Source: Pseudomonas caspiana (GTDB lineage: Bacteria; Pseudomonadota; Gammaproteobacteria; Pseudomonadales; Pseudomonadaceae). Taken from it: a DNA stretch of 64,000 nt. This document shows, piece after piece, positions 47,486 to 63,943 of the stretch. The notes beneath the pieces are model-generated. The model saw only the letters and a list, made by a program, of their open reading frames with translations, was not told the origin of the DNA and did no database searches. Positions within the stretch are counted from its first letter, which is position 1, and every line of letters starts with the position of its first letter. The position numbers and the translations under genes were made by a program. Where the stretch lies: assembly GCF_002158995.1 (NCBI RefSeq), contig NZ_LOHF01000001.1, positions 91,367 through 155,366 of the forward strand, given 5' to 3'.

Positions 47486-47875
47486 TCAAGGGCTTACAGT
47501 GAAGCTGTAACTGCCTTCGCTTTTGTGGGTATCAACGGACACCGCGTGCCATTCGACCTTGTACTCGCCTGCCGCCAGCGGCGCTGCGGGGGTGACGATC
47601 AGAACTTTTCTGTCTGCGGGGTCGGTGGCAATCTCGGGTACCGGTTCCACCAGTGTTTTGCCACCTTTGGCTGTCGAGGTGATGCTGATTTTGGTGAATT
47701 TCTCTTCAACACCTTCCGAGAAATGCAGGCGCAGTTCCTTGGGGCTGCTGACGATGCTGTCAGCGGCAGGCAGTTGGCTGTCCAGGTGCGCATGGGCAGA
47801 GGCGTTGCTCGCCAGCGTCAGGGATGCGAGTACAGAAAGGGTCGAGAGGAGGTGCTTGAAACGTTGGGCAGACAT
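47486..47875 (-). CDS. copC: Periplasmic copper-binding protein CopC
   Basis: 129 aa. Signal peptide ending NASA, so the mature protein begins HAHLDSQLPAAD, giving the N-terminal His copper brace; YKVEWHAVSVDTHKSEGSYSFTV near the end is the usual CopC terminus. Start is ATG 47875 (a TTG precedes it). Carries Cu(II) in the periplasm; acts with CopD. Confidence 0.9.
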   Translation of the reverse strand: MSAQRFKHLLSTLSVLASLTLASNASAHAHLDSQLPAADSIVSSPKELRLHFSEGVEEKFTKISITSTAKGGKTLVEPVPEIATDPADRKVLIVTPAAPLAAGEYKVEWHAVSVDTHKSEGSYSFTVSP

Positions 47876-50425: not shown

Positions 50426-50704
50426 GTGTATCTCCGAAGACGTTTAAGTAATTTTTTCTGCAAAGCTTCAGATTTGCTTTGCTGTTGAAGTGGATTCTAT
50501 GCGCGCCAATGGTCATTCAAAAATGGAGCGTGTCGATACACGCCATCACCGGGGCCGATACATGTGTGAAGTTGATATTCGAACCGCTTAAACCATTCGG
50601 ATCTAATAATTAGATACGCGACGTCGGTTGTATCAATGGATCAGATAGCCACTTTCTATCGCCGACTGCATGCTCTGGCCATTAATTAGCCACGGACGCT
50701 GAAC

Positions 50705-51097
50705 ATGCAGAAGTTCGAAATACTTCGACAAACCCGCTTCGATAATCTGGTCCATCAATACGGTCTGGACGGCAGTCGTTTACTGCCATGGCAGGGCTAC
50801 CCGATGCCGTTTGCCGGGGGCTGGTGCGTCGTCCGGCCAGGAACAAGCAGCGAAGCACACACCCAGATCGATCAGGAAATCTTCATCGCCATCAAAGGCC
50901 GCTCGCGACTGGTCGTGGGTGAGCGTGAACTGGAGTTCGGCGTAGGAGATATCGCGGCGATTCCGAAGCACACCAATCACTACATCATCAATGACTCGGA
51001 GGAGGACTTTCACTTCTACGTGGTCTGGTGGGACATGAACTACGTCAATGACTTCGTCGCCCAACACAACGAAACCACGGGGTGCCTGAATGACTAG
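50705..51097 (+). CDS. Cupin, stand-alone subunit of a probable hydrazine (N-N) synthetase
   Basis: 130 aa single cupin. Motif 1 is EAHTQIDQEIFIAIKG and motif 2 GDIAAIPKHTNHYIIN, offering His52, Glu58 and His92 as metal ligands (Gln54 replaces the second His of the usual HxH). In s56-p1, triacsin and formycin-type pathways a zinc cupin fused to a MetRS-like domain joins an N-hydroxylated amine to an amino acid with formation of an N-N bond. Here the cupin is a separate protein whose last 8 bases overlap the MetRS-like gene. First gene of the operon. Role inferred from context; a plain cupin has many possible jobs. Confidence 0.72.
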   Translation: MQKFEILRQTRFDNLVHQYGLDGSRLLPWQGYPMPFAGGWCVVRPGTSSEAHTQIDQEIFIAIKGRSRLVVGERELEFGVGDIAAIPKHTNHYIINDSEEDFHFYVVWWDMNYVNDFVAQHNETTGCLND

Positions 51098-52589
51098 GTT
51101 CGTTGTCACCATCACGCCGCCGACACCCAATGGCGACCTGCACATCGGGCACATTGCCGGGCCTTTTCTGGGCGCGGATGTTTTCACCCGTGTTCAGCGC
51201 CAGCGGGGTCATGACTGTGTGCTGGTTTCCTATTCCGACGATTACCAGTCCTACATGCTGCGCAAAGGGCTGGAGCAGGGCGTGGACCCGGTCGAGCTGG
51301 CGGGGCGCAACTCTGATCGGATTGAAGCGTCACTCGCGGCGATCAACATCAGGCCCGACAACTGGATGCGTCCACATGGCAATCCGTTTTTTGCCGACGC
51401 CGTGCGAGAGGTTTTCGACAAGGCCCGCGCAGCGGGAGCCATCGAATTTCGTGATTCCAGCGAGGCGTACTGCCCTGACTGTGACGTCTGGGGCTACGAA
51501 GCGTTTGCTCGTGGCCTGTGTAACTACTGCGGGGCCGAGTCCGATGCCAGCCAGTGTGAAAACTGCGCTCAGGCTCCCGACTCCGAACTGATGAGCGAAC
51601 TGCGTTGCAAGCTGTGCAGTGAGCCAGTGCAGTGGCGCAGCAGCCATCGGGCATTCCTCAAACTGGCGCGGTTCAAACCCGCGTTACGCGACAGCCTGCT
51701 CAATCGCAAATGGCGCAAGCCGCTGGACAGCTGGCTGCCCGAGACGCTCGAACATTTACATGACTGGGGCGTGACCCGGCCCGGCGACGCGGGGCTGGAT
51801 CTGGCTGAAGGCGATTCGTGCCGGGTGCACACCTGGTTCATGGGGCTGGCCGGTTATATGGCCGCTTTCCGCGAACACGCCGCTCGCATAGGCGAGCCCG
51901 AGCTGTTCCAGCAGTACTGGCAGTCGGGGCAGGGCACGCTGGTGCATTTTCTCGGTTTCGACTGTGTGTTCAGTCACGCTGTGGTTTACCCGGCCTTGTT
52001 GTCGGTGCTGGACGATCTGCAGATCCGCCAACACTTCATGCCCAACCAGTTCCTCAAGCTTGACGGCTTGAACCTGTCCACTAGCCGCAACCATGCGATC
52101 TGGGTCGCCGATCTGGCCCGCCAAGCCTGTGCCGACAGCGCTCGGTTGTATCTGGCGAGTATTGCGCCGGAGGAGTGTGAGGGCGATTTCCGTCTGCAGC
52201 ATTTCCTGCTCTGGCGCGACAGCCTGTTTGGCGAGTTTTTCCCTGCGTTGCTTGAGGCGGGCGCCCGGCAGCACGGCAGTTGGTGGAGCGGCATGTGCGG
52301 ACCTGACGCTGGCCTGCTTGAAGCGTTGCGGCTGCAATGGGTCAAGGCCACGCAGCCGGAACAATTCTCTATGAAAACCATGGCCAGCGTCCTGCTCGAC
52401 GTGATTGCCATCGCGCGTATCCGTCTGGGCGAAGGACGTCCGGTCAGCCACTTCGCCGCGTTCATTGCCGTGACCGGTCAGGCGCTGATTCCGGACACGA
52501 CCGCACGCATCGTCGAATCATTCGAGCTGCCACTGGACAGGGTCAGTGCAACGATTCTCACCGGCTCGGCCGCTGAATACTGCATTTGA
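51090..52589 (+). CDS. Methionyl-tRNA-synthetase-like enzyme of a hydrazine synthetase
   Basis: 499 aa class I synthetase core. HIGH signature LHIGH at residues 17-21; four zinc-knuckle CxxC pairs between about residues 128 and 175 (CPDC, CNYC, CENC, CKLC); the KMSKS loop is altered to LNLSTSRNH near residue 328. It is shorter than cellular MetRS and seems to lack the anticodon-binding helix bundle and tRNA-binding tail. In known clusters this domain uses ATP to attach an amino acid to the hydroxylamine oxygen, and the cupin then rearranges it to N-N. Overlaps the cupin gene (ATGACTAG). Not a housekeeping synthetase. Confidence 0.8.
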   Translation: MTRFVVTITPPTPNGDLHIGHIAGPFLGADVFTRVQRQRGHDCVLVSYSDDYQSYMLRKGLEQGVDPVELAGRNSDRIEASLAAINIRPDNWMRPHGNPFFADAVREVFDKARAAGAIEFRDSSEAYCPDCDVWGYEAFARGLCNYCGAESDASQCENCAQAPDSELMSELRCKLCSEPVQWRSSHRAFLKLARFKPALRDSLLNRKWRKPLDSWLPETLEHLHDWGVTRPGDAGLDLAEGDSCRVHTWFMGLAGYMAAFREHAARIGEPELFQQYWQSGQGTLVHFLGFDCVFSHAVVYPALLSVLDDLQIRQHFMPNQFLKLDGLNLSTSRNHAIWVADLARQACADSARLYLASIAPEECEGDFRLQHFLLWRDSLFGEFFPALLEAGARQHGSWWSGMCGPDAGLLEALRLQWVKATQPEQFSMKTMASVLLDVIAIARIRLGEGRPVSHFAAFIAVTGQALIPDTTARIVESFELPLDRVSATILTGSAAEYCI

Positions 52590-52604
52590 ACGGACGCACA
52601 CCTC

Positions 52605-53741
52605 ATGTTGATGGACTATGACGTCGCAGTGATCGGCGCGGGCATTATCGGCGCCAGTATTGCGGCACGGCTCAGCACTGCCGGACTGGCTGTGGCCCTG
52701 ATCGATAAGGACGCGGCAGGCGCTGGCGGAGCAAGTGCGCTGTCCGGCGGGCTGGTGCGGGTGTATGACCCCGACCCACTGTTGATGGACTTCGCTGCGT
52801 TTTCGATTGGCCTGCTGGACGACGGTATTTTCGCCGGTACGTACGCTCGGGCCTTGCAGCGCAGCGGCGCACTCTATCGCGCTGCGCCTGAGCAAATGGA
52901 CGACCTCTGCCGCGCCATTGAGCAACACGCCAGCCCTCGTTACCCCATGCGCCTGATCGCCAGTCGCGAGCTGGATGGCGGGCAGTTTCCACTGTGCCCT
53001 GATCAAGCTCGGGTCAATCTGTACGAGCCGCATGCCTGCATCGGCAACGTCAGGCTGGCGACCCAACTGCTGGCAGATGTGGTGCGGCGCAATGGCCTGT
53101 TGCTGGAACATTGCCAAGTACGCGCCATTGATTGCAAATCACCTCACGAGGTCCATGTAGGACTGGGCGAGAGCACCTTGCGTTGCCGTGCGCTGGTGGT
53201 GGCTGCCGGTGGCTGGAGTCGGCGATGGGTGCCGGGTTTGCAACTGCAAACCCGCTCCATTCCGCTGGCTCGGGTACTGACCAACACAGAGTGCGGCATG
53301 CCGGTGATTGATGCCGTCAGCCAGAGTTACCTGATTCCCCTGACGCGCCAGGTGGTGCAGACCGGTTGTGGCTTTCGCGACACGGAGCAATCTCCGGATG
53401 ATCTGCCAGCCACTGACCTGCGCAATCGGCAGGACGCGGTCAATCGGGTGCGTCAGTTGACCGGCTGTACTCACTCTGAAGTGCTGGATGTGCTGCCCGG
53501 TTTTGATAGCTACAGCCCAGACGGTCGCCCGCTGCTGGGGTTTGTCGAGGAAGACAGTCCGGTGTTCCTCGCCACTGGCATGTCCGGCCTGGGCTTCAAG
53601 TTTGCGCCTGGCATCGCCCAGATCGCTTTTGAGCACATGCAAAGTCGCCTGCTCGGTAAGGAAACTGGCGCTGGCTGGTCGGCACTGTCCCCACGGCGTG
53701 CCATGCAACATGGGGAAGTTGTCGCGGGAGTGCAGCCATGA
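52605..53741 (+). CDS. FAD-dependent amino acid oxidase (DAO/glycine oxidase-like)
   Basis: 378 aa. FAD-binding VAVIGAGIIGASIAARLSTAGLAVALIDKD at the N-terminus, a central substrate domain and the C-terminal DAO signature GFDSYSPDGRPLLGFVEEDSPVFLATGMSGLGFKFAPG. In hydrazine pathways a DAO-type oxidase (for example those of triacsin and formycin) cleaves the N-N intermediate oxidatively to release a hydrazine or hydrazinoacetate. That is its likely role here. 15 bases after the MetRS-like gene; overlaps the next gene by ATGA. Confidence 0.82.
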   Translation: MLMDYDVAVIGAGIIGASIAARLSTAGLAVALIDKDAAGAGGASALSGGLVRVYDPDPLLMDFAAFSIGLLDDGIFAGTYARALQRSGALYRAAPEQMDDLCRAIEQHASPRYPMRLIASRELDGGQFPLCPDQARVNLYEPHACIGNVRLATQLLADVVRRNGLLLEHCQVRAIDCKSPHEVHVGLGESTLRCRALVVAAGGWSRRWVPGLQLQTRSIPLARVLTNTECGMPVIDAVSQSYLIPLTRQVVQTGCGFRDTEQSPDDLPATDLRNRQDAVNRVRQLTGCTHSEVLDVLPGFDSYSPDGRPLLGFVEEDSPVFLATGMSGLGFKFAPGIAQIAFEHMQSRLLGKETGAGWSALSPRRAMQHGEVVAGVQP

Positions 53742-54694
53742 CGATGCTCAAAGTCGGTGTGTCTGCCTTGTTTGATCCTGCGGTCACTCCCCACGCGAGA
53801 ACTTTTCTACGGGCAATGTGCGTGGCACGAAACTTCATCCCGGCTCTGGCTCCGGTGCAGTGGCATTTCCTTGATGACGGCGCCAATCGTGCGCGTGCCG
53901 AGCAGGTCGCGGAGCACATGGTGGCTGCTGACGTCGACCTGGTGATCGGTCATTTCTCATCCGATGCGGCAGTCAGCGCAGCACCGGTTTATCGGCAAGC
54001 GGGCATCGCGTTGCTGACCCCGGCGGCGACGATTGATTGCCTGACCCAGGACCATCACAACGTGTTTCGTTTTTGCCCGTCGGACCGGCAACTGGCCAGG
54101 GATCTGCTCGGCTGGATCGCCGTCAAAGGCTGGCAAACCCTGCACATCTGCGCCGATAACAGTGCGCACGGACAAGCCTTGGCCAAGTGCATTGCTCAGG
54201 CTGCAAGGGATGGCGGCCTACGCCAGACCGATGAGCGTGAACTGGCGCAGGTGGAAGTATTTGCCGGGCGCCTGCGCAGCAGCCGCGAGCATTGGCAGCA
54301 GCGTCGTGCGGCGGGCAGTCAGCGGCCGCTGATCCTCACCGATGATGCCGCTTCGCCATATCTGGGCAACGCCGCCGCGGACGACCGCACGACCTGGGTG
54401 ATCGGTTTCGGCAATGCCGAAAATCCAGAGCAGCCATGTCCGGGCATCTTGCAGCACAGGGCACTTTTTGGGACAGCCGCTGAAACCTACTACCGGGAAA
54501 GCCTGCTGCTGTTCCACGTACTGGGCGTATTGGCCGGCCGCCACTGGCGTCGCGCCGAGCTGCTGCATGCCTTGAATCACACCACCTTCAACACGCCGTT
54601 GGGCGACGTCAGTTTCGATCAGGGCGAGCGCCGGGGCGCGTGTAACAACCTCTGGCGAGTGGGCCCCCAAGGGCTGCAAGCCATTAACGAATAG
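53738..54694 (+). CDS. Periplasmic-binding-fold protein without signal peptide
   Basis: 318 aa resembling type I substrate-binding proteins of the branched-chain amino acid class (KVGVSALFDPAV near the start; DLVIGHFSSDAAVSAAPVYRQAGIALLTPAATIDCL; a hinge VFRFCPSDRQLARDLLGWI). No signal peptide or membrane segment is visible at the N-terminus, so it should remain in the cytoplasm. It could be an AmiC-like sensor or a repurposed binding or catalytic protein of the pathway. No ABC permease is nearby. Overlaps the preceding oxidase gene by ATGA. Confidence 0.65.
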   Translation: MTMLKVGVSALFDPAVTPHARTFLRAMCVARNFIPALAPVQWHFLDDGANRARAEQVAEHMVAADVDLVIGHFSSDAAVSAAPVYRQAGIALLTPAATIDCLTQDHHNVFRFCPSDRQLARDLLGWIAVKGWQTLHICADNSAHGQALAKCIAQAARDGGLRQTDERELAQVEVFAGRLRSSREHWQQRRAAGSQRPLILTDDAASPYLGNAAADDRTTWVIGFGNAENPEQPCPGILQHRALFGTAAETYYRESLLLFHVLGVLAGRHWRRAELLHALNHTTFNTPLGDVSFDQGERRGACNNLWRVGPQGLQAINE

Positions 54695-54725
54695 CAATGC
54701 CTTAAACACTATGGATGGGACGCAA

Positions 54726-56042
54726 ATGAGTGCATCAACAACAGGGGGCGTTCACGCAGACGCCGTGTGTATCGGCTTCGGTCCGGCGGGCATCGCGCTG
54801 TCGTGTGTCTTCGAAGACGCACGCGAAGCAGGCTCACCGCTTGGCGAGCTTTCCATGTGTTTTCTGGAGGCCGCTCATGACACACAGTGGCATCGCGAAC
54901 TGCTCCTCAGCGGTACGGACATCAATCATCACGTGTTCCGTGATCTGGTCACGCCGCGTGATCCGCGCAGCCGCTTTTCGTTCGCCATGTACCTCAAGGA
55001 TCAGGGCCGCATGTTCGACTTCGGCCTGCTGGGTCGCCCGGCCAGTCGCCACGAATGGTCGGACTACCTGCGCTGGGTTTCGGCGCAAGTCGATGGTCAG
55101 ACGAAATTCAATGCACCGGTCAGGGAAATTCTGCCGGTGATGGAGGAGGGGCGCCTTAGCCGTGTTCAGATCGAAATACCGAACGGCCGTGTCGAAACCC
55201 GCAATATCGTGCTGTCCAGCGGCAGCGCGCCTCATATCCCTGAGCTGTTCCAGGGTTTGCTCGGACCGACGTTGTTTCACACCTCGCAGTTCCTGACCCG
55301 CTTGCAGGCGTTCGGCGAGTCCTTGCCCAAGCGCTGGCTGGTGGTCGGCTCAGGGCAGAGTGCAAGCGAATCGGTGCTGGAACTGATCGCCCGGGAGCGC
55401 CACATCCTTGTGCATTCGGCCCATCGTTCTGCGGGTTTCAAACTGACCCAGCTCGGACAGTTCCCCAATCGGGTGTTCGCCCCGGACCACGTGGATTACT
55501 TCCACGGCCTGGACCCTGCCGCCCGGCAGCGTTTTCTGGGCTGGAGTCGATCGACCAATTACGCCGGAATCGATCCGGACGAAAGCCAGAAGCTGTTTTC
55601 ACTGATCTACGAAGACGCCATCGCCGGTCGCCAACGCCTGCGCACCCATGCCTACAGCGAGATCAGCAAGGTGGAAAAAATCACCGATGGCTACCAGGTC
55701 ACGCTGACGGACACCTTCAGCCTACGCAGTCAGGTGCTGGAGGTTGACGTAATTGTGCTGGGCACCGGTTATCAGCAGCCTGTCTTGCCGCCGCTGCTAA
55801 GCAACTTGCAGCCGTGGCTAAAGGCCGATCTGGATGGCGGGCTGGTGATTGATCGCGATTACCGCATCGCTACACAGGGCCAATGCGACATCAAGTTGTG
55901 GGTCAACGGGCTCTCCGAGCGCAGTCACGGCATCAGCGACAGCCAGTCGTTTTCGCTGATGGCATTGCGTGCCGAGCGTATCGCGCTGGGCCTCGAACGT
56001 GCCGTGCAGGCGCAAACCCTTGAACCGCTGCTGACTGAATGA
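54726..56042 (+). CDS. Amine N-hydroxylase (SidA/PvdA/IucD family)
   Basis: 438 aa: FAD motif CIGFGPAGIALS, HRELLLSGTDINHHVFRDLVTPRDPRSRFSFAMYL (typical of ornithine/lysine N-oxygenases), NADPH motif LVVGSGQSASESVLEL, GFKLTQLGQFPNRVFAPDHVDYFHGL, and VIVLGTGYQQP. It uses NADPH and O2 to hydroxylate a side-chain amine. With an L-Dap synthase next door, the substrate may be the beta-amine of 2,3-diaminopropionate rather than ornithine or lysine. ATG 54726 is preferred; ATG 54711 adds five residues. Confidence 0.82.
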   Translation: MSASTTGGVHADAVCIGFGPAGIALSCVFEDAREAGSPLGELSMCFLEAAHDTQWHRELLLSGTDINHHVFRDLVTPRDPRSRFSFAMYLKDQGRMFDFGLLGRPASRHEWSDYLRWVSAQVDGQTKFNAPVREILPVMEEGRLSRVQIEIPNGRVETRNIVLSSGSAPHIPELFQGLLGPTLFHTSQFLTRLQAFGESLPKRWLVVGSGQSASESVLELIARERHILVHSAHRSAGFKLTQLGQFPNRVFAPDHVDYFHGLDPAARQRFLGWSRSTNYAGIDPDESQKLFSLIYEDAIAGRQRLRTHAYSEISKVEKITDGYQVTLTDTFSLRSQVLEVDVIVLGTGYQQPVLPPLLSNLQPWLKADLDGGLVIDRDYRIATQGQCDIKLWVNGLSERSHGISDSQSFSLMALRAERIALGLERAVQAQTLEPLLTE

Positions 56043-56052
56043 CGTGACCCTC

Positions 56053-58062
56053 ATGTACAACAACATTTCCGAAATCGTTCACGATCAGACCTTTCTCAAA
56101 GTAGCGGGGATCGGGCCTGAGTTCTTTCTAAAGCTGGAGTCGCTGAATCCCGCAGGCTCGATCAAGCTCAAGACAGCCGTCGGCCTGGTCGATGATTTGC
56201 AGAGTCGGGGCCAGATCAACGCGGACACCGTGCTGATCGAATCCTCGTCGGGCAATCTGGGTGTGGCGCTGGCGATGATCTGTGCCGAACGCGGCATCAG
56301 GTTCACTTGCGTGGTTGATCCGAACAGCTCCAATCACAACATCCGCCTGATGCAGACCTATGGCGCCGAGGTTATCCAGGTCAATGAGCTGGACGCCAAC
56401 GGTGGGTATCTCGGTACGCGCATCGCGCTGATCCGCCAGAAAGTCGCTGATGACCCGCGCTTCGTGTGGCTCAACCAATACGAAAACGCTGCCAACCCGC
56501 GCGCTCATGCCCGGACCACCGCGCAGTCCATCGGTCGGCACTTTGGCCACGTGGATTACCTGTTTGTCGGCGCGGGCACCACCGGCACGCTGATGGGCTG
56601 CGTACAGTATTTCCGCCGTCACCACCCGGCGACGACGATTGTGGCGGTGGACAGTGTGGGCTCTGTGACTTTTGATACGCCACCCGGCAAGCGCTTCATT
56701 CCGGGGCTGGGCACCAGCCAGCGGCCGCCGATTTTCAACGCCGAGGGTATTCATTATCTGGAAATGGTCCCGGAGGAGCGGACCATTGCCATGTGCCGTT
56801 TGCTGGCGCGCAACAAAGGTCTGCTGGTGGGCGGTTCCACCGCGACGGTCATCGCCGCGGTGCATGCCTGGCGCGAGCGCATTGAACCGGGTTCGGTGGT
56901 CGTCGCGCTCTCGCCGGATTGGGGCGAGCGCTATCTCGACACCCTTTACGATGATCACTGGGTCGAGCAGCGGTTTGGCCGTCAGGTGTTGCAGATGACT
57001 CTGGATGACATGCCTGTCGAGCCATCGCGGACCACTGATTTGCACAGTGCCCGCCTGAAGCAATCGGCCTTTCATGTGGTCGATGGCAAGACTGTCGCGC
57101 GAATACTCGCCGAGGATCCAGTGGCCTGCATCGATGATGTTCAGCAGGCCTATCTGGAGCATCATGCCGGGCGCAGCATCAACCCCGATAGTTACTTCCT
57201 GCGCTTCCCGCAGGCTCCGGCCAATCGCATTATTGCGCTGCCTGCCAGTCTGTCCGGCGAGCAATCGGTCAGTGGCATCAAGTGGATCTCCAGTTTCCCC
57301 GGCAACATCGAGTCGGGCCTGCAACGCGCCTCGGCGGTGCTGATCCTCAACGACGCGCGCAGCGGTTATGCCTATGCCTGCCTGGAAGCATCGCGGATCA
57401 GCGCCATGCGCACTGCGGCGTCAGCGGTGCTGGCGGCGCGCTGGCTTAACCGGCAGCAACGCAAGGTGGGACGCTTGTCAGTGGTGGGTGCCGGGTTCAT
57501 TGCCCGGACCATCCTCGATATGTTTGTCAGTGACGGCTGGCAGATCGACGCGCTGGAGGTGTTCGATCTGCACAGCGATTCAGCCGCCGCACTCATTGGT
57601 CACGCGACTGTGCAACACCAACTGGCGTGTCAGGCAGTTGACCTCGATAGGGCATTGCAGGCCGATGTCGTGGTGTTCGCCACCACGGCGCCGAGCCCGT
57701 ATGTCATTGAACAGCGCTTCCGGCCAGAGCAGATCCTGCTGAATATTTCCCTGCGCGATTTGGGGCCGGAGATCATCGCGCAGGCCAATAACATCCTTGA
57801 TGATGTCGAGCATTGCCTCAAAGCCCAGACCTCGCCGGACCTGGCCGTACAGCATTATCAGCATCGCGGGTTCATCACCGGCACCCTGGCGCAACTGATG
57901 CTGGGCGAGGTGGAAGTCAGCCCTGATCGGCCGACGATTTTCTCGCCGTTCGGTTTGGGCGTGCTTGATCTGGCGGTGGGCAAGCGGGTTTATGACTACG
58001 CAGTGGAACAGGGCGCGACGTTGCCAGTTCCGGAATTTTTCTTTGAATCGAAGCGCTGGTGA
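56053..58062 (+). CDS. Fused SbnA-SbnB 2,3-diaminopropionate synthase
   Basis: 669 aa. Residues 1-325 match SbnA (PLP Lys38 in NPAGSIKLK, ESSSGNLGVALAMICAERG, CVVDPNSSNHNIRLMQTYGAEV, NQYENAANPRAH, GTTGTLMG). Residues about 335-669 match SbnB (RIIALPASLSGEQSVSGIKWISSFPGN, GYAYACLEASRISAMRTAASAVLAARWL, NAD motif VVGAGFIARTIL). In staphyloferrin B synthesis, separate SbnA and SbnB convert O-phosphoserine and glutamate to L-Dap plus alpha-ketoglutarate and ammonia. Fusion into one chain is unusual. ATG 56053 or GTG 56044 starts; follows the N-hydroxylase closely and overlaps the next gene. Confidence 0.85.
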   Translation: MYNNISEIVHDQTFLKVAGIGPEFFLKLESLNPAGSIKLKTAVGLVDDLQSRGQINADTVLIESSSGNLGVALAMICAERGIRFTCVVDPNSSNHNIRLMQTYGAEVIQVNELDANGGYLGTRIALIRQKVADDPRFVWLNQYENAANPRAHARTTAQSIGRHFGHVDYLFVGAGTTGTLMGCVQYFRRHHPATTIVAVDSVGSVTFDTPPGKRFIPGLGTSQRPPIFNAEGIHYLEMVPEERTIAMCRLLARNKGLLVGGSTATVIAAVHAWRERIEPGSVVVALSPDWGERYLDTLYDDHWVEQRFGRQVLQMTLDDMPVEPSRTTDLHSARLKQSAFHVVDGKTVARILAEDPVACIDDVQQAYLEHHAGRSINPDSYFLRFPQAPANRIIALPASLSGEQSVSGIKWISSFPGNIESGLQRASAVLILNDARSGYAYACLEASRISAMRTAASAVLAARWLNRQQRKVGRLSVVGAGFIARTILDMFVSDGWQIDALEVFDLHSDSAAALIGHATVQHQLACQAVDLDRALQADVVVFATTAPSPYVIEQRFRPEQILLNISLRDLGPEIIAQANNILDDVEHCLKAQTSPDLAVQHYQHRGFITGTLAQLMLGEVEVSPDRPTIFSPFGLGVLDLAVGKRVYDYAVEQGATLPVPEFFFESKRW

Positions 58063-59816
58063 TGCCCATGCCAACGTTTTTTGACGCCCAACGCATTGTC
58101 ATCATAGGCATGGGTTCTCGCGGCCTCAGCGTGCTGGAACAACTGATCGGCGCGGCCCGACGGGATTCGCACAGGCCGCTGGTGATCGACCTGTTCGACC
58201 CACAACTGCCAGGCAGTGGTCTGCACTCACCCGAGCAACCGGACTACTTGATGCTCAACACCATGGCGGGCCAGTTGTCCGGCTTTTCTTCGGCTTATCC
58301 GGCGTGGCAGCCGGATGAAACGCCGGGGCTGACCTTCCTGCAGTGGTGTACCGCTGAGGGGCTACTTCTGAATGAGCGCGGTCATACCAGTGGCAGCGAA
58401 GCAGGGCGGCCTATCGAGTTTGCTGACTTCGTACCGCGCAAGCTGCTTGGCCGTTACCTGCGCGATTGCTATCGATATCTGCTGACGCTTTGCCCGCCCC
58501 AAGTGCAGGTCAACCATCGTCGGAACCTGATTATTGGCTGTCGCCCGAAATCTGGTAATCAAGGCTTTCACCTGCACACCGCTGAAGGGCTGGACGTTGA
58601 GGCTGACGCAGTGTTTCTGACCACCGGACACACGCCGCAACCAGAGGCAGATTGCGAAGGTAAACGCGTAGCGATCGAAGGCCTTGGTCTGAGCGCCATG
58701 GATCAGATCGCCCACCTGACTGAAGGCCGGGGTGGTCGCTTTGTCCGCGATGACAGCCAGGGTGGATGGCGTTATCTACCTTCGGGGCGTGAGCCGCAGA
58801 TTTATCTGTTTTCCCGCTCGGGCCTGCCGTTTCATTGTCGGCCGCATGGGACGCCAGCGTCTTCGGTGACGCAACGGTTGTTCTTCACCGCCCAGGTTAT
58901 TGTCGAGCTGCGCAAAAACAGCCCGGACGGGCGACTGGATTTCGCTCAGCAGGTTTTGCCGCTGATCGAGGACGAGATGCGCAATGCTTTCTACCTGGCG
59001 CAAGCGCGTCTGCAGCAGCCGGGCCGTCTGGAGTTTGTTCGCCACTCGCTGCAAAACGCGAAGACTGAACAAGCGCTGCGGAAGGTTTTTGCAGCATTGG
59101 CCGAAGAATTTGGCCCGTTCGAGCCGCAGGCCTATCTGAATATTCAGGGCTGGCGGGGCGATCCGCAACACTACTCCCAATGGTTTCGGCAGTGGGTCGC
59201 CCGCGATCTGACGCGCAGTTGTCTGGGTGTTGATGCGAGTCCACTCACGCAAGCGCTGGAGGTGTGGCGTGACTGCCGGGACCTGTTGCGATTAGTCGCC
59301 GATCACGACGGCCTCAATGATCGCTCGACCCTTGAGTTCTACGGCGCATGGGCAGGCCTTGGCAATCGTCTGGTCGGTGGGCCGCAGAAGGAGCGTTACG
59401 AGGATTTGCTGGCGCTGATGAATGCTGGCGTGGTCATGCCTGTAGCGCCTGATGGCATCCACGCGATTGAAATCGACAGCCTGATCAGTGCCCGCAACGC
59501 CCCCAGTGGCCTGGGCCAGAACCGTTTGCTTTTGATCGATGACTTGCTTGGGCAAGGCCTGATCAAAACAGCGCATCCATACCCGGCTGACGGCATCGCG
59601 GTTGATGCCCAAAGCCGGGCGCTACGTCGCGATGGTTCTGCCCATGAGCGCCTTTGGGTGCTTGGGCCCGGCGTCGAAGGCAGCACGTTTTACAACCATT
59701 ACGTGCCAACGCCGGATCCTGCCTGCAAAGCACCGTTGCAGGCGCGAACTGCGGTGCGGGCCTGCCTCGCGGCGCTGCATGTCGAGGTCGAGGTCGAGAG
59801 TCTGGCGGTTAATTAA
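58062..59816 (+). CDS. FAD/NAD(P)-binding protein (NAD_binding_9 type), pathway role unknown
   Basis: 584 aa. N-terminal dinucleotide site VIIGMGSRGLSVLEQL, then PGSGLHSPEQPDYLMLNTMAGQLS, and a C-terminal LWVLGPGVEGSTFYNHYVPTP. This resembles the FAD-NAD(P)-binding proteins grouped as pfam13454, some of which oxidise amines or amino acids in natural product pathways. Start ATG 58062 overlaps the preceding stop (TGATG). Last enzyme of the tightly packed operon. Confidence 0.7.
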   Translation: MPMPTFFDAQRIVIIGMGSRGLSVLEQLIGAARRDSHRPLVIDLFDPQLPGSGLHSPEQPDYLMLNTMAGQLSGFSSAYPAWQPDETPGLTFLQWCTAEGLLLNERGHTSGSEAGRPIEFADFVPRKLLGRYLRDCYRYLLTLCPPQVQVNHRRNLIIGCRPKSGNQGFHLHTAEGLDVEADAVFLTTGHTPQPEADCEGKRVAIEGLGLSAMDQIAHLTEGRGGRFVRDDSQGGWRYLPSGREPQIYLFSRSGLPFHCRPHGTPASSVTQRLFFTAQVIVELRKNSPDGRLDFAQQVLPLIEDEMRNAFYLAQARLQQPGRLEFVRHSLQNAKTEQALRKVFAALAEEFGPFEPQAYLNIQGWRGDPQHYSQWFRQWVARDLTRSCLGVDASPLTQALEVWRDCRDLLRLVADHDGLNDRSTLEFYGAWAGLGNRLVGGPQKERYEDLLALMNAGVVMPVAPDGIHAIEIDSLISARNAPSGLGQNRLLLIDDLLGQGLIKTAHPYPADGIAVDAQSRALRRDGSAHERLWVLGPGVEGSTFYNHYVPTPDPACKAPLQARTAVRACLAALHVEVEVESLAVN

Positions 59817-59861
59817 CTCCCCCCATTCACTTTTATCAATTACTGAAGAAGGATTATCTCC

Positions 59862-60494
59862 ATGGTCGAGATCACTTTGCTGACCGCGCTCGCCGGCGCT
59901 TTTATCGTGCTGATCATCAGCCCCGGCCCGAATTTTCTGGTCATTACTCAACTGTCCATCAGCCAGTCTCGACAACAGGGAATCTGCGCGGGATTGGGCG
60001 TTGCATCGGGCAGCATCATCTGGGCATTGCTGGCCTGTACGGGGTTGGGTCTGATGTTTCAGCAGTTGCCTTGGGCGCAACCCGCGTTGCAGTTGCTGGG
60101 GGGCGCGTACCTGATCTGGCTGGGCAGCAAAAGCCTGTGCAATGCCGGGGCGCAACCCAAGCCGCGCAACATCGGCGAGCTGGGTATTGGCAGTCTGGGC
60201 CGGGCGTATCGGTTCGGTTTGCTCACCAACATGACCAATCCCAAGGCGCTGGCGTTCTACACCAGTGTGTTCACCACTGTTTCGACACCGGGCTTGCCGA
60301 TGTGGGTGCGTACCGCCGGGGTTTTGATCATTGCCGTGCTGGCCATCTCCTGGTTCGTATTGCTCGCCACGCTGTTTTCCATTCCCGCCGTGCAGGCGCG
60401 TTATCAGCGCATGAAAAAAGCCATCGACATTATTACCGGTGTGTTCATGGTCGCGTTTGGCCTGCGCTTGCTGATCGGGTTGTGGGCTTTCTGA
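59862..60494 (+). CDS. LysE/RhtB-family exporter
   Basis: 210 aa with six hydrophobic segments, starting MVEITLLTALAGAFIVLIISPGPNFLVI and carrying the family core GLGVASGSIIWALLACTGLG and GAYLIWLGSKSL. These proteins export amino acids and analogues; the product or a by-product of the cluster is a likely cargo. GAAGGAT precedes ATG 59862 by about 9 bases; 45 bases after the FAD protein. Confidence 0.86.
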   Translation: MVEITLLTALAGAFIVLIISPGPNFLVITQLSISQSRQQGICAGLGVASGSIIWALLACTGLGLMFQQLPWAQPALQLLGGAYLIWLGSKSLCNAGAQPKPRNIGELGIGSLGRAYRFGLLTNMTNPKALAFYTSVFTTVSTPGLPMWVRTAGVLIIAVLAISWFVLLATLFSIPAVQARYQRMKKAIDIITGVFMVAFGLRLLIGLWAF

Positions 60495-60541
60495 TCGTCT
60501 GATCCGGACAAGAGGCAGTTTTCCGGGTTGACCCAAATTCC

Positions 60542-60630
60542 GTAGGAGCTCACCGAGTTTACGAGGCCAGCGATGGCGGTGTGTCAGATAAAACGCTATC
60601 GCTGGCCCCGTAACCTCGGTGAGCTCCTAC
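60542..60630. repeat. Palindromic intergenic repeat (GTAGGAGC type)
   Basis: GTAGGAGCTCACCGAG (60542-60557) ... inverted CTCGGTGAGCTCCTAC (60615-60630), and inner arms CCAGCGAT/ATCGCTGG. Lies between the LysE gene and the alcohol dehydrogenase, which may mark the end of the biosynthetic operon. Confidence 0.8.
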
Positions 60631-60691
60631 AGGTCCCGTGTTTGCTGGGCGACTGGGGCAACTCTTATTGATTTGAACAAGGATGAACACC

Positions 60692-61846
60692 ATGCAAAGC
60701 AATGATTGGCACTACCCGACGTCGATCCGTGTGGGACCGGGGCGCGTTCGGGAATTGGCCCAGGCCTGCGAAGCCAGCGGTATCCGTCGACCACTGCTGG
60801 TGACTGACCGTTTCCTCGGCGGGACCGACATGATTCAGCGTGCGCTGGCGGACTGCCGTAAAGCGCTTGGGCTCTGCGGTCTGTTCGATCAGGTCAAAGG
60901 CAACCCGACCGGGACCAACGTCGCCGAGGGTCTGCAAGCCTACAAAGCGGGCGCCCATGATGGGGTGATTGCCTTTGGTGGCGGCTCGGCGCTGGATGCC
61001 GCCAAGGCCATCGCGTTGATGTCCGGTCAGACTCGGCCGTTGTGGGACTTTGAAGACATCGGTGAAAACCATAAGCGCGCTGACCCTGACGGCATTGCCC
61101 CGATTATCGCGTTGCCCACCACGGCCGGGACTGGCTCGGAAGTCGGTCGGGCTTCAGTGATCACTGACGAACAGGCACGGGTCAAACGCACGATTCTGCA
61201 TATCCGGATGATGCCGCGCGTAGCTATTCTGGATGCCAACCTGACACTGGATTTGCCCGCCGACCTCACCGCCGCAACCGGCGTCGATGCCTTGACCCAC
61301 TGCATGGAAGCGTACTGCTCGCCGGTGTATCACCCCATGGCGGAAGCCGTTGCGGTAAAGGGCATGCAGATGATCAAGCAGTTCCTGCCCCGGGCGGTCG
61401 CAGATGGCAGCGATCTTCAGGCCCGACAGGAAATGCTCGTGGCTTCCAGCCTCGGCGCAGCGGCCTTTCAGCGTGGGCTGGGGGGGGTGCATGCGATTGC
61501 TCAGACGCTGGGCGCTCTGTATGACCATCACCACGGGTTGCTCAACGCAATCCTGCTGCCCTATGTGTTGCAGGCGAATCAATCGGCGTTGGGGCCACAA
61601 ATGGATGCATTGGCCGTGGCGCTGGGTTTGACCCGGCCGGGGTTCAACGGAGTGATGGAGTGGTTGTTGACGCTGCGTGAGCACATCGGTATTCCCCATA
61701 CGCTTGGCGCCTTGGGTATCGACGAGCGCGACGCCGGGCTGGTGGGGCAGATGGCGTTTGCCGATGGCTGCTCGCACACCAATCCGATTCGCCATTCGGC
61801 TGAGATGTACACGCAGATCTTCTGCAATGCGGTGCGAGGCCGGTGA
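60692..61846 (+). CDS. Iron-containing alcohol dehydrogenase
   Basis: 384 aa: FGGGSALDAAKAIALM, ALPTTAGTGSEVGRASV, metal ligands in GVDALTHCMEAY and GGVHAIAQTLGALYDHHHGLLNAILLP. Group III NAD-dependent dehydrogenase for primary or secondary alcohols. ATG 60692 has AAGGA eight bases upstream; ATG 60683 is too close to it. It overlaps the serine hydrolase gene (GTGA). Possibly an accessory of the neighbouring cluster or a separate unit. Confidence 0.85.
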   Translation: MQSNDWHYPTSIRVGPGRVRELAQACEASGIRRPLLVTDRFLGGTDMIQRALADCRKALGLCGLFDQVKGNPTGTNVAEGLQAYKAGAHDGVIAFGGGSALDAAKAIALMSGQTRPLWDFEDIGENHKRADPDGIAPIIALPTTAGTGSEVGRASVITDEQARVKRTILHIRMMPRVAILDANLTLDLPADLTAATGVDALTHCMEAYCSPVYHPMAEAVAVKGMQMIKQFLPRAVADGSDLQARQEMLVASSLGAAAFQRGLGGVHAIAQTLGALYDHHHGLLNAILLPYVLQANQSALGPQMDALAVALGLTRPGFNGVMEWLLTLREHIGIPHTLGALGIDERDAGLVGQMAFADGCSHTNPIRHSAEMYTQIFCNAVRGR

Positions 61847-62985
61847 TTGTCGATGCAGCGACCATCAAGCGCATCGACGAGGTCTGGCATGGCGTCGTTG
61901 ATCAAGGCCGGATTGTCGGTGGCGTGGTGCTGCTGGCTCAGGCGGGTGAACTTCGTTACGCCTGCGCTCGGGGTTGGGCGGATCGCGAGGCGCAGAAGCC
62001 CATTACCCGGCATCAACGTTTCCGGCTGGCGTCACTGACCAAGCTGATCACTTCGGTCTGCGTTCTGCGTTTGCAGGAACATGGCGTGTTACGTATCGAT
62101 GATGCGCTGACCCGCTGGTTGCCGGACTTCACGCCGAAACTGGCGGACGGCTCAGTGCCGATTATCACGTTGCGCCATCTGCTGTCCCACACGTCGGGGC
62201 TGGCCTATGGTTTTGAATTACCCCCCGGTAACCCATATGAACAGGCCGGAGTCAGCGACGGGCTGGACCTGGTTGCCTTTGATCAAGCTGAAAACCTGTG
62301 GCGGCTGGCGAGCGTCCCGTTGCTGTTCAGACCGGGCAGCGCGTGGCGGTATTCACTCGCCACCGACGTGCTGGGTGTGGTGATTCAGCGTGCGACAGGT
62401 ATGACATTGCCTGAGGCCATCAGGCATTGGGTTACCGGGCCGCTGGGAATGAGCGCTACCGGATTTCACGAGGGTGATCCGCAATCCCTGGCATGTGCTT
62501 ACAAGGATGACGCCCATTGGCCGGTGTTGATCAATTGCGCTGATGAGCTGCATCTGGACACCGGCAGGGCCAGCGTTTCAGCCTGTCGCAGCAGTGATCC
62601 ACACGGCTGGTCTTCGGCCGGGGCCGGGATGGTCGGCAACGCCGACGACTATCTACGTTTACTGGAGTGCCTGCGACTAGGAGGTGCGCCATTATTGACC
62701 GAGGCTGCCACATCCAGCCTGTTAAGCAATGCGATCGGCGAGGTACAGATCGAGGGCAGGGGGCCGGGCTGGAAATTTGGCCTCGGCCCCATGCTGCTGA
62801 CCGATCCGCTTCAGGCCCGGCAGTTACAAGGACCGGGAAGCTGGTCGTGGTGCGGGATTTACGGCTGCCATTATTGGGTGGACCCGCAAGCCGAAATCAG
62901 TCTGGTGGCGATGACCAACACTGCGGTGGCGGGCGCCTGGGGGGAATTTCCTGACGCCCTGATCGAAGCGATTTATTCGCCGTGA
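61843..62985 (+). CDS. Beta-lactamase-fold serine hydrolase
   Basis: 380 aa, EstB/class C beta-lactamase fold: SxxK in RLASLTKLITSVC (near residue 63), LRHLLSHTSGLAYG, Tyr motif WRYSLATDVLGVVI, and WCGIYGCHYWVDP in place of KTG. No signal peptide, so cytoplasmic esterase or amidase rather than antibiotic resistance. GTG start overlaps the dehydrogenase stop. Confidence 0.8.
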   Translation: MIVDAATIKRIDEVWHGVVDQGRIVGGVVLLAQAGELRYACARGWADREAQKPITRHQRFRLASLTKLITSVCVLRLQEHGVLRIDDALTRWLPDFTPKLADGSVPIITLRHLLSHTSGLAYGFELPPGNPYEQAGVSDGLDLVAFDQAENLWRLASVPLLFRPGSAWRYSLATDVLGVVIQRATGMTLPEAIRHWVTGPLGMSATGFHEGDPQSLACAYKDDAHWPVLINCADELHLDTGRASVSACRSSDPHGWSSAGAGMVGNADDYLRLLECLRLGGAPLLTEAATSSLLSNAIGEVQIEGRGPGWKFGLGPMLLTDPLQARQLQGPGSWSWCGIYGCHYWVDPQAEISLVAMTNTAVAGAWGEFPDALIEAIYSP

Positions 62986-62989
62986 GCCA

Positions 62990-63943
62990 TCAAGCCCGGG
63001 TGAACTGCTTGCGGTAGCTGCTGGGGCTGACGCCAACGATGTTGCGGAAGTGGCGACGGAACGACTCCTCGGAGCCGAACCCTGCGACATCGACGACTTC
63101 GGTCAGGCGCATGTTCGAGGACTCGAGCAACTCCTTCGCGTAGGCAATGCGTTCACCCAGCAGCCAGTCGTTGGGGGTCAGGCCGGTGCTTTCCATGAAA
63201 CTGCGGTGCAGCGTTCGGGTGCTGACGGCTGCGTGATCCGCCATGTCCTTGATGCTGTGCTGGCGTTGCAGGTCGCTGCGGATCCAGTCCATCAACTTCG
63301 AGATTGGTCCTTCGCTGGCAGACACCAGCTGGCGCGAGGCGTATTGCGACTGACCGCCTTCACGATGGGGCGGGATGACCATGCGTTGCGCGACCATGTT
63401 CGCCACTTTTGCGCCGTGATCGTTACGCACCAGATGCAACATCATGTCCAGTCCCGCCGCAGAACCGGCAGCGGTAACGATCTGGCCCTGATCGACATAC
63501 AGCTCGTTTGGCTGGATGGTCAGTTCCGGATACATGCTCGCCAGCAAATCGGTGTAGCGCCAATGCGTCGTGACGCGTTTGCCTTCGAGCAATCCCGCTG
63601 CAGCCAGGACAAATGCACCGGTACAGATCGAGCAGATCCGTGCGCCACGGGCATGCGCTGCCTGCAACTGGGCAATCAGCTTGGGAGGGACCTCGGATTC
63701 GACGCCGCGCCAGCCGGGCACGATGATGGTATCGGCGTTCTCCAGCAACACTTCGCCCGGTGTGGGCACGATGGTAATACCGCCTGCGGCCGTGATCTGG
63801 CCTTCATCCACCGGGAACGTAGCGAACTCATACCAGGTGACACCCAGTTCGGGTCTTTTCAAGGCGAATACTTCAACCGTGCACCCAAACTCAAAGGTGC
63901 ACAGCTGGTTATAGATGAGGGCAACGACGAGATGATTTTTCAT
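62990..63943 (-). CDS. ftrA: FtrA-type transcriptional regulator (DJ-1/PfpI + AraC HTH)
   Basis: 317 aa. N-terminal DJ-1/PfpI-like domain (VVALIYNQLCTFEFGCTVEVFALKRPELGVTWYEF; nucleophile-elbow region RICSICTGAFVLAAAGLLEGKRVTTHW) and C-terminal AraC double HTH (MADHAAVSTRTLHRSFMESTGLTPNDWLLGERI, VDVAGFGSEESFRRHFRNIVGVSPSSYRKQF). Convergent with the hydrolase gene (4 bases apart). Ligand unknown. The final 57 bases of the window are its upstream region. Confidence 0.84.
   Translation of the reverse strand: MKNHLVVALIYNQLCTFEFGCTVEVFALKRPELGVTWYEFATFPVDEGQITAAGGITIVPTPGEVLLENADTIIVPGWRGVESEVPPKLIAQLQAAHARGARICSICTGAFVLAAAGLLEGKRVTTHWRYTDLLASMYPELTIQPNELYVDQGQIVTAAGSAAGLDMMLHLVRNDHGAKVANMVAQRMVIPPHREGGQSQYASRQLVSASEGPISKLMDWIRSDLQRQHSIKDMADHAAVSTRTLHRSFMESTGLTPNDWLLGERIAYAKELLESSNMRLTEVVDVAGFGSEESFRRHFRNIVGVSPSSYRKQFTRA

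Follow-up and report, generated by a model that had tools for sequence, protein, structure and literature searches.

A conserved Pseudomonas operon predicted to form N-N bonds, possibly starting from 2,3-diaminopropionate

Gene content and layout

The 64,000-nucleotide stretch of Pseudomonas caspiana contig NZ_LOHF01000001.1 analysed here (the window) contains an operon of ten genes, lettered A to J, that resembles known hydrazine synthetase clusters. The ten plus-strand genes fill positions 50705-62985 as open reading frames that all point in one direction, and their identities were assigned from Pfam and NCBIfam profile matches. They encode, in order, a standalone cupin (A), a methionyl-tRNA synthetase (MetRS)-like protein (B), a DAO/ThiO-type flavin oxidase (C), a leaderless amino-acid-binding protein (D), a SidA-type flavin N-hydroxylase (E), a fusion of SbnA and SbnB (F), an FzmM/CreE-like flavin N-oxygenase (G) and a LysE/RhtC-type exporter (H), followed by an iron-containing alcohol dehydrogenase (I) and a serine hydrolase (J). 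A and B overlap by 8 nt, C and D by 4 nt and F and G by 4 nt, and the remaining gaps as far as H measure 1-45 nt; H and I are separated by 188 nt, and I and J overlap by 4 nt. An earlier note on this DNA, which described a hydrazine operon running from A to H, had named seven of these genes (A, B, C, E, F, G and H), all of which are present as plus-strand open frames. The one-way run with overlaps or short gaps that it described also holds, although it overlooked D within its range and ended before I and J, with which the run continues. A Pfam and NCBIfam scan detected no carrier protein, nonribosomal peptide synthetase (NRPS), polyketide synthase or amide-ligase family among the ten genes, in agreement with that note, which on the absence of the first three expected a small free molecule.

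Relatives of the operon were sought in named genomes with an alignment of MetRS-like proteins, and the best 80 of 363 relatives were kept, a sample that may omit records near the window's own genome. The 51 loci termed SbnA/B-type below were chosen by B, then grouped by F, and scored with the window's proteins. A gene was counted as present when it gave a profile match of more than 50 bits; in automatic listings of gene order, some genes are masked by shadow frames.

Conservation across genomes

Genes A to F are each present in 51 of the 51 SbnA/B-type loci and G in 49, the two loci without G being a rearranged one (L029) and one at a contig end (L031). H, I and J are found in 30, 33 and 29 of the 51, respectively, with I lying about 8 kb away and giving a weaker match in two of its 33 loci (L061 and L063). 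The records comprise 47 Pseudomonas, 2 Burkholderia and 2 Paraburkholderia, and carriers named among the loci include P. syringae, P. cichorii, P. viridiflava and P. amygdali. The two Burkholderia records have I 5' of the cupin, next to the exporter gene. SbnA and SbnB are unfused in the P. graminis-type loci, in L061 and L063 and in both Burkholderia loci, and fused elsewhere. Since A, C, D and E occur in every one of 51 loci that were chosen by B and grouped by F, across three genera, the operon is not a chance assembly. Scattering of the genes in relatives, which the earlier note had regarded as damaging to the pathway, was not observed; the gene set stays together.

In an even sample of 398 Pseudomonas species genomes, B is present (E ≤ 1e-100) in 30, the window's own included, and 29 of these also carry G (E ≤ 1e-20), the exception being G346. 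The core is common to many Pseudomonas, much of the plant-associated P. syringae group among them. In one genome the match to G falls in two pieces with a small step between them (G022:C1:227329-228927), and its B is placed as in L012 (P. syringae GR12-2). A plasmid collection yielded two MetRS-like matches, both below 40 % identity, from Vibrio halioticoli and from a Xenorhabdus record; AP028980.1 (Xenorhabdus sp. TCT-1, 28.9 kb), in that collection, holds a MetRS-like relative of 37 % identity.

A predicted hydrazine synthetase with a variant metal site

In characterised hydrazine synthetases a MetRS-like part uses an amino acid, an N-hydroxy amine and ATP to form an ester, which a zinc cupin rearranges to a hydrazine (PMC8664883). 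A (50705-51097, +; Cupin_2) is the predicted N-N-forming half of a split synthetase of this kind, and B (51090-52589, +; tRNA-synt_1g and NF008859) is predicted to activate the partner amino acid as its adenylate and to produce the ester. B matches synthetase catalytic-domain families only (tRNA-synt_1g, residues 5-372), and its best PDB match is the Met-tRNA synthetase 1rqg (residues 1-373). It also matches NCBIfam NF008859, 'methionine--tRNA ligase', over its full length and above the cut-off (808.8 bits); as B is of the hydrazine synthetase type, the database annotation of proteins like it is probably misleading. The genome's own MetG is encoded on a separate contig (C12) and scores 98 bits against B, compared with 1174 against itself. 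B is therefore not the housekeeping copy, and the earlier concern that it might group with ordinary tRNA synthetases is answered to the extent that it is distinct from this MetG.

The zinc ligands of PyrN are H50, H52, E56 and H90; its H52A variant keeps less than 3 % activity, and the corresponding H65A variant of RHS1 loses zinc (PMC8664883). The metal site of A, whose nearest solved relative is plu4264, reads H52-x-Q54-xxx-E58 ... H92. Its Glu58 aligns with Glu56 of PyrN and Glu69 of RHS1, so that the invariant Glu is retained, but the second zinc-ligand position (His52 of PyrN, His65 of RHS1, a His that the authors do not present as a defining feature) is occupied by Gln54. Gln is found there in 51 of 51 SbnA/B-type loci, whereas none of the 21 other cupins aligned (>35 bits) possesses it, nine having His and 12 Asn. 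Glutamine is known as a metal ligand in other cupins, and the Gln54 site of A may represent a tuned rather than a dead metal site.

The oxidase C (52605-53741, +; PF01266, 141 bits), predicted to cleave a C-N bond of the hydrazine conjugate, accompanies the pair in 51 of 51 SbnA/B-type loci. An N-hydroxylase and a DAO-type oxidase thus share a cluster with the cupin and MetRS-like pair, which upholds, as a prediction from sequence, the assignment to the hydrazine synthetase type made in the earlier note.

Diamine supply and N-hydroxylation

F (56044-58062, +) is the predicted L-2,3-diaminopropionate (Dap) synthase. Both of its halves pass NCBIfam equivalog cut-offs, with 409.8 bits against a cut-off of 349.95 for TIGR03945 and 417.9 against 326.9 for TIGR03944, so that the supply of Dap by SbnA and SbnB proposed previously stands as a prediction. 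Among the 80 loci, 51 carry SbnA/B only, 19 a diaminobutyrate transaminase only, none both and 10 neither. The transaminase was called at E ≤ 1e-30 against two reference proteins, 15 of the 19 scoring above 350 bits and four between 112 and 239 bits; two representatives exceed the NCBIfam cut-offs. Hydrazine synthetases in print take N-hydroxylated lysine, ornithine, diaminobutyrate (DABA), putrescine or diaminopropane (PMC11705231), and because the diamine varies among them a swapped supply gene is a reasonable pointer to the diamine used. Between the SbnA/B-type and transaminase loci it looks as if this gene has been swapped. The hydrazine-type clusters of three Serratia and Photorhabdus loci (L058, L060 and L062) carry two different N-hydroxylases, a diaminobutyrate transaminase and a DABA-decarboxylase-like gene.

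E (54711-56042, +; PF13434, 252 bits) would accept Dap to give N3-hydroxy-Dap, and is close to PDB entry 5cqf of P. syringae (776.7 bits). It was compared with three ornithine-type enzymes, namely PvdA, KtzI and 9nns (the ornithine enzyme EtcB by its entry title). All three have Lys at the position of PvdA Lys69, which we take to be the carboxylate anchor, and E has Arg77 instead. The Arg is shared by the window and 51 of 51 SbnA/B-type loci, and also by 14 of 14 enzymes of a further clade (X) from other clusters, 13 of them in transaminase loci (L067 is not). A longer Arg anchor would put the carboxylate nearer the flavin, and would suit a diamino acid shorter than ornithine. The genome's own PvdA is encoded on another contig, so E is not the pyoverdine copy. 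In a midpoint-rooted tree PvdA, on a long branch, falls outside the clade of 73 rows that unites E with the transaminase-type enzymes (support 100/99); the strict grouping of E with PvdA against which the earlier note had warned is not seen.

A second N-oxygenating enzyme

G (58059-59816, +; NAD_binding_9) is FzmM-like in sequence and has the three-domain fold of FzmM (8cp2/8cp5). It retains the catalytic Asn62 of FzmM and the arginine cluster Arg266/409/412/416, and was overlooked as an N-oxygenase in the earlier note; it is likely to be a second enzyme that adds oxygen to nitrogen. Conservation was assessed in 167 sequences, comprising the window's G, those of the loci and the listed homologues longer than 500 residues, with near-copies kept in; the homologue listings cover 120 of 398 and 120 of 683. 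The catalytic Asn is kept in 167 of 167. The position of FzmM Asn413 is occupied by Asp408 in the window's G, and across the 167 rows by Asp in 138, Glu in 21 (159 together), Asn in 3 and another residue or a gap in 5. As the N413E substitution abolishes aspartate hydroxylation by FzmM (PMC10404684), an acidic residue here accords better with a positively charged substrate than with aspartate. The tree of G drew on 27 of the 49 loci of the hydrazine synthetase type, of which L041 was lost as a fragment, leaving 26 and the window.

G also occurs in loci that lack a hydrazine synthetase. Ten of the 13 such loci with E ≤ 1e-45 were covered (outside were G046, G162 and G178, plus eight weaker ones with E of 1e-22 to 1e-30), and in nine of the ten G adjoins SbnA and/or SbnB. 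Both Sbn genes were seen in six of the nine, and in three only one, the other being hidden by an over-long frame. This association in the absence of the synthetase ties G to Dap chemistry. L157-L165 form a separate Pseudomonas cluster in which SbnA, SbnB and an FzmM-like oxygenase are followed by glutathione S-transferase (GST)-like, permease-like and MocR-type genes; no description of this cluster was found in the literature searched.

Proposed pathway and alternatives

What is observed is the identity and order of the genes, their conservation and the changes in single residues; every substrate and product named below is inferred. We tentatively favour, without rating it as probable, a pathway in which the operon makes Dap, N-hydroxylates it, couples it through an N-N bond to a second amino acid, releases beta-hydrazinoalanine and oxidises the nitrogen of this compound further. 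F would make Dap, as its two equivalog matches suggest, and E would turn it into N3-hydroxy-Dap. By homology to PyrN and RHS1, B would activate the partner amino acid as an adenylate and esterify it onto the N-OH group, and A would rearrange the ester to create the N-N bond. C would oxidise the C-N bond on the partner side, as Apy10 does, so that the partner leaves as a 2-oxo acid and L-2-amino-3-hydrazinopropionate (beta-hydrazinoalanine) remains; a cut on this side is expected because there would be little point in making Dap for the pathway only to discard it. G, as an FzmM-like multi-round N-oxygenase, would oxidise the terminal nitrogen, possibly to N-NO or N-NO2, while D would hold an amino-acid-like intermediate in the cytosol and H would export the product. 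One sequential path is the simplest arrangement, given that no amide-ligase, NRPS or carrier family occurs in the ten genes.

It is conceivable, albeit unlikely, that G alone oxidises the terminal nitrogen of beta-hydrazinoalanine several times over, so that the product is a free amino acid with a nitramine or N-nitrosamine group, namely L-2-amino-3-nitraminopropionate or the nitroso equivalent. If so, the operon would offer a direct enzymatic route from hydrazine to nitramine that needs no carrier protein, which is the unresolved point of N-nitroglycine biosynthesis, and a small metabolite with an N-N bond would be widespread in the P. syringae group. Should G act on a hydrazine at all, it would be a candidate for this missing chemistry. 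The proposal gives an orphan operon a specific pathway that can be put to the test. It predicts that hydrazine synthetases accept a new N-hydroxy substrate (from Dap), that the metal site of an N-N-forming cupin varies in nature, that one branch of the aspartate N-hydroxylase family is linked to Dap, and that a cytosolic Venus-flytrap protein recurs in hydrazine pathways.

Several observations weigh against this pathway. Gln is the second metal ligand of A, at the position where the H52A substitution leaves PyrN with less than 3 % activity and H65A costs RHS1 its zinc. Three Photorhabdus and Serratia enzymes share the Asn72/Arg77 pair of E in loci without SbnA/B, so this signature is not specific for Dap, and the residue comparison included no proven lysine N-hydroxylase. 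The G proteins of the Pseudomonas loci L061 and L063 have Asn at the Asn413 position and have lost two arginines, so that their function may have shifted. The P. graminis-type and Paraburkholderia loci are without H, I and J in the 10 kb examined, and the 51 loci come mostly from related Pseudomonas, so that the counts above are not independent events. Finally, the SbnA-SbnB-G cassette exists alone, and Dap may therefore serve G only, with E acting on another substrate.

A somewhat unlikely alternative follows the last of these objections: A to E would act on another N-hydroxy amino acid (derived from ornithine, lysine or diaminobutyrate), F and G would make N-oxygenated Dap, and the two modules would meet later or give two products. 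The occurrence of SbnA-SbnB-G elsewhere, ahead of GST-, permease- and MocR-type-like genes, is consistent with such modules, as are the presence of A to E without SbnA/B or G (G is found in 0 of the 19 transaminase loci) and the E-like Photorhabdus and Serratia enzymes in SbnA/B-free loci. The ten genes contain no ligase family that could join two products, however, the merged subtype retains both modules (G in 49 of 51 loci), and the Lys-to-Arg change at the anchor sets E apart from the three ornithine-type enzymes compared.

The earlier note had speculated that beta-hydrazinoalanine or its cyclic pyrazolidinone is the end product. The compound is kept in the sequential pathway favoured here, more probably as an intermediate or side product than as its end, because G is an FzmM-like N-oxygenase. 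That the pathway ends with beta-hydrazinoalanine or the cyclic hydrazide 4-aminopyrazolidin-3-one, with G only a side or detoxifying enzyme, we regard as quite improbable: Apy9 and Apy10 make the one-carbon-longer L-2-amino-4-hydrazinobutanoate en route to a dihydropyridazinone (PMC11705231), and an RhtC-type exporter suits a small amino-acid-like product, but an enzyme of the FzmM class in 49 of 51 loci is hard to square with a path that stops before N-oxidation. It is very improbable that G is an ordinary aspartate N-hydroxylase which yields nitrosuccinate (and so nitrite or 3-nitropropionate) for N-N chemistry in the style of CreE and CreD; homology to FzmM and the shared fold favour this, but an acidic residue (Asp or Glu) takes the place of Asn413 in 159 of 167 rows, and no CreD-kind lyase family occurs in the ten operon genes, the only part of the genome checked for one. 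The highly oxygenated Met-Lys-type dipeptide or siderophore proposed in 2010, when P. syringae was among the carriers in an operon analysis (PMC2922099), is scarcely credible now that relatives have been shown to form hydrazines (PMC8664883, PMC11705231).

Comparison with described systems

The cupin/MetRS hydrazine synthetases, split or didomain, include RHS1 and its MetRS-like partner of Rhodococcus jostii as well as PyrN, Spb40, Tri28, Apy9 and Por11. The operon has in common with them adjacent cupin and MetRS-like genes, a nearby N-hydroxylase, a DAO-type oxidase and the invariant Glu, and differs in the SbnA/SbnB supply, the Gln at the second metal-ligand position and the added FzmM-like oxygenase. 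The available portion of a review that lists Por11 of P. orientalis and a synthetase of P. fluorescens does not give Dap as one of the substrates that these enzymes take in N-hydroxylated form (PMC11705231). The closest parallel described there is actinopyridazinone (Apy9-11), in which N-hydroxylated DABA is joined to an amino acid and cut at the C-alpha-N bond so that the diamine keeps the hydrazine; in the operon Dap is predicted in place of DABA, and the ten genes are without a carrier protein. FzmM and CreE share with G the fold, the catalytic Asn62 and the arginine cluster, whereas G has mostly Asp or Glu for Asn413, adjoins SbnA/SbnB and has no CreD-kind lyase beside it in the ten genes. 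A hydrazino acid precursor of a nitramine, as proposed here, also features in the N-nitroglycine (nng) pathway of Streptomyces noursei, but that system employs NRPS tethering, a haem-oxygenase-like diiron enzyme and a P450, with the final oxidation still unresolved (PMC13274452), where the operon has a single FzmM-like flavoenzyme and lacks an NRPS.

Operons of a MetRS paralogue, a cupin and a lysine monooxygenase were described in 2010 by Aravind et al., who named P. syringae and guessed at a Met-Lys peptide (PMC2922099). These have the same gene core, with periplasmic-binding superfamily proteins in their neighbourhoods, but in the portion of the text available Dap, N-N chemistry and FzmM are not named. 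A 2011 paper has the SbnA-SbnB fusion PSPTO_2960 of P. syringae DC3000 in a table, with its product as 'Unknown' (PMC3179956), and was the only one on PSPTO_2958-2963 found in the literature searched. Genome mining published in 2026 covered 129 clusters that contain hydrazine synthetases, and 'Pseudomonas' does not appear in the text of that paper (PMC13061610). We found no description of this cluster with Dap or with an FzmM-like partner in the literature searched, although prior mention is possible, nor any occurrence of 'hydrazinoalanine' or 'nitraminoalanine' in the open-access literature searched. The earlier description of the operon as undescribed-looking accordingly needs qualification, since its kind and the SbnA-SbnB fusion were already on record; the Dap-based variant with an N-oxygenase is undescribed as far as found. 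We judge the operon kind and the hydrazine synthetase family to be known and the Dap base and added N-oxygenase to be new, and the more oxidised N-N product appears to be undescribed. A paper on sbnAB deletion in Burkholderia glumae, which reads the genes as those of a siderophore (PMC7909282), was not used, as the cluster was not seen here.

Accessory genes and flanking DNA

D (53738-54694, +; Peripla_BP_6) has a type I periplasmic-binding fold and no export signal, its first strand starting at residue 5, and no ABC permease or ATPase family was found by Pfam and NCBIfam among the other nine operon genes. This Venus-flytrap protein is predicted to be a cytosolic holder of an amino-acid-like intermediate. 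H (59862-60494, +; PF01810) matches LysE/RhtC, so that the amino-acid-type exporter of the earlier note is borne out, with export of the product a prediction. I (60683-61846, +; PF00465) may serve in by-product reduction or tailoring, and J (61843-62985, +; PF00144) encodes a serine hydrolase of the beta-lactamase fold.

Scans for sigma-70 promoters and terminators gave chance-level results only, and the single match to the Hrp box (GGAACC-N14-17-CCAC) in the window, at 47625-47648, lies away from the operon and compares with 0.49 expected by chance. A 15-bp palindrome (7-1-7) at 50601-50615, about 90 bp 5' of the cupin start, is a possible operator. Convergent with J is a gene for an AraC/GATase1-like regulator (K, 62990-63943, -), which stands beside J in 12 of 13 related downstream regions. 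K was set aside as a pathway regulator because it shows 87-97 % identity across these regions, compared with 59-75 % for J, and is thus probably part of a core-genome flank. A second, divergent relative (30-40 %) adjoins K in those 12 regions.

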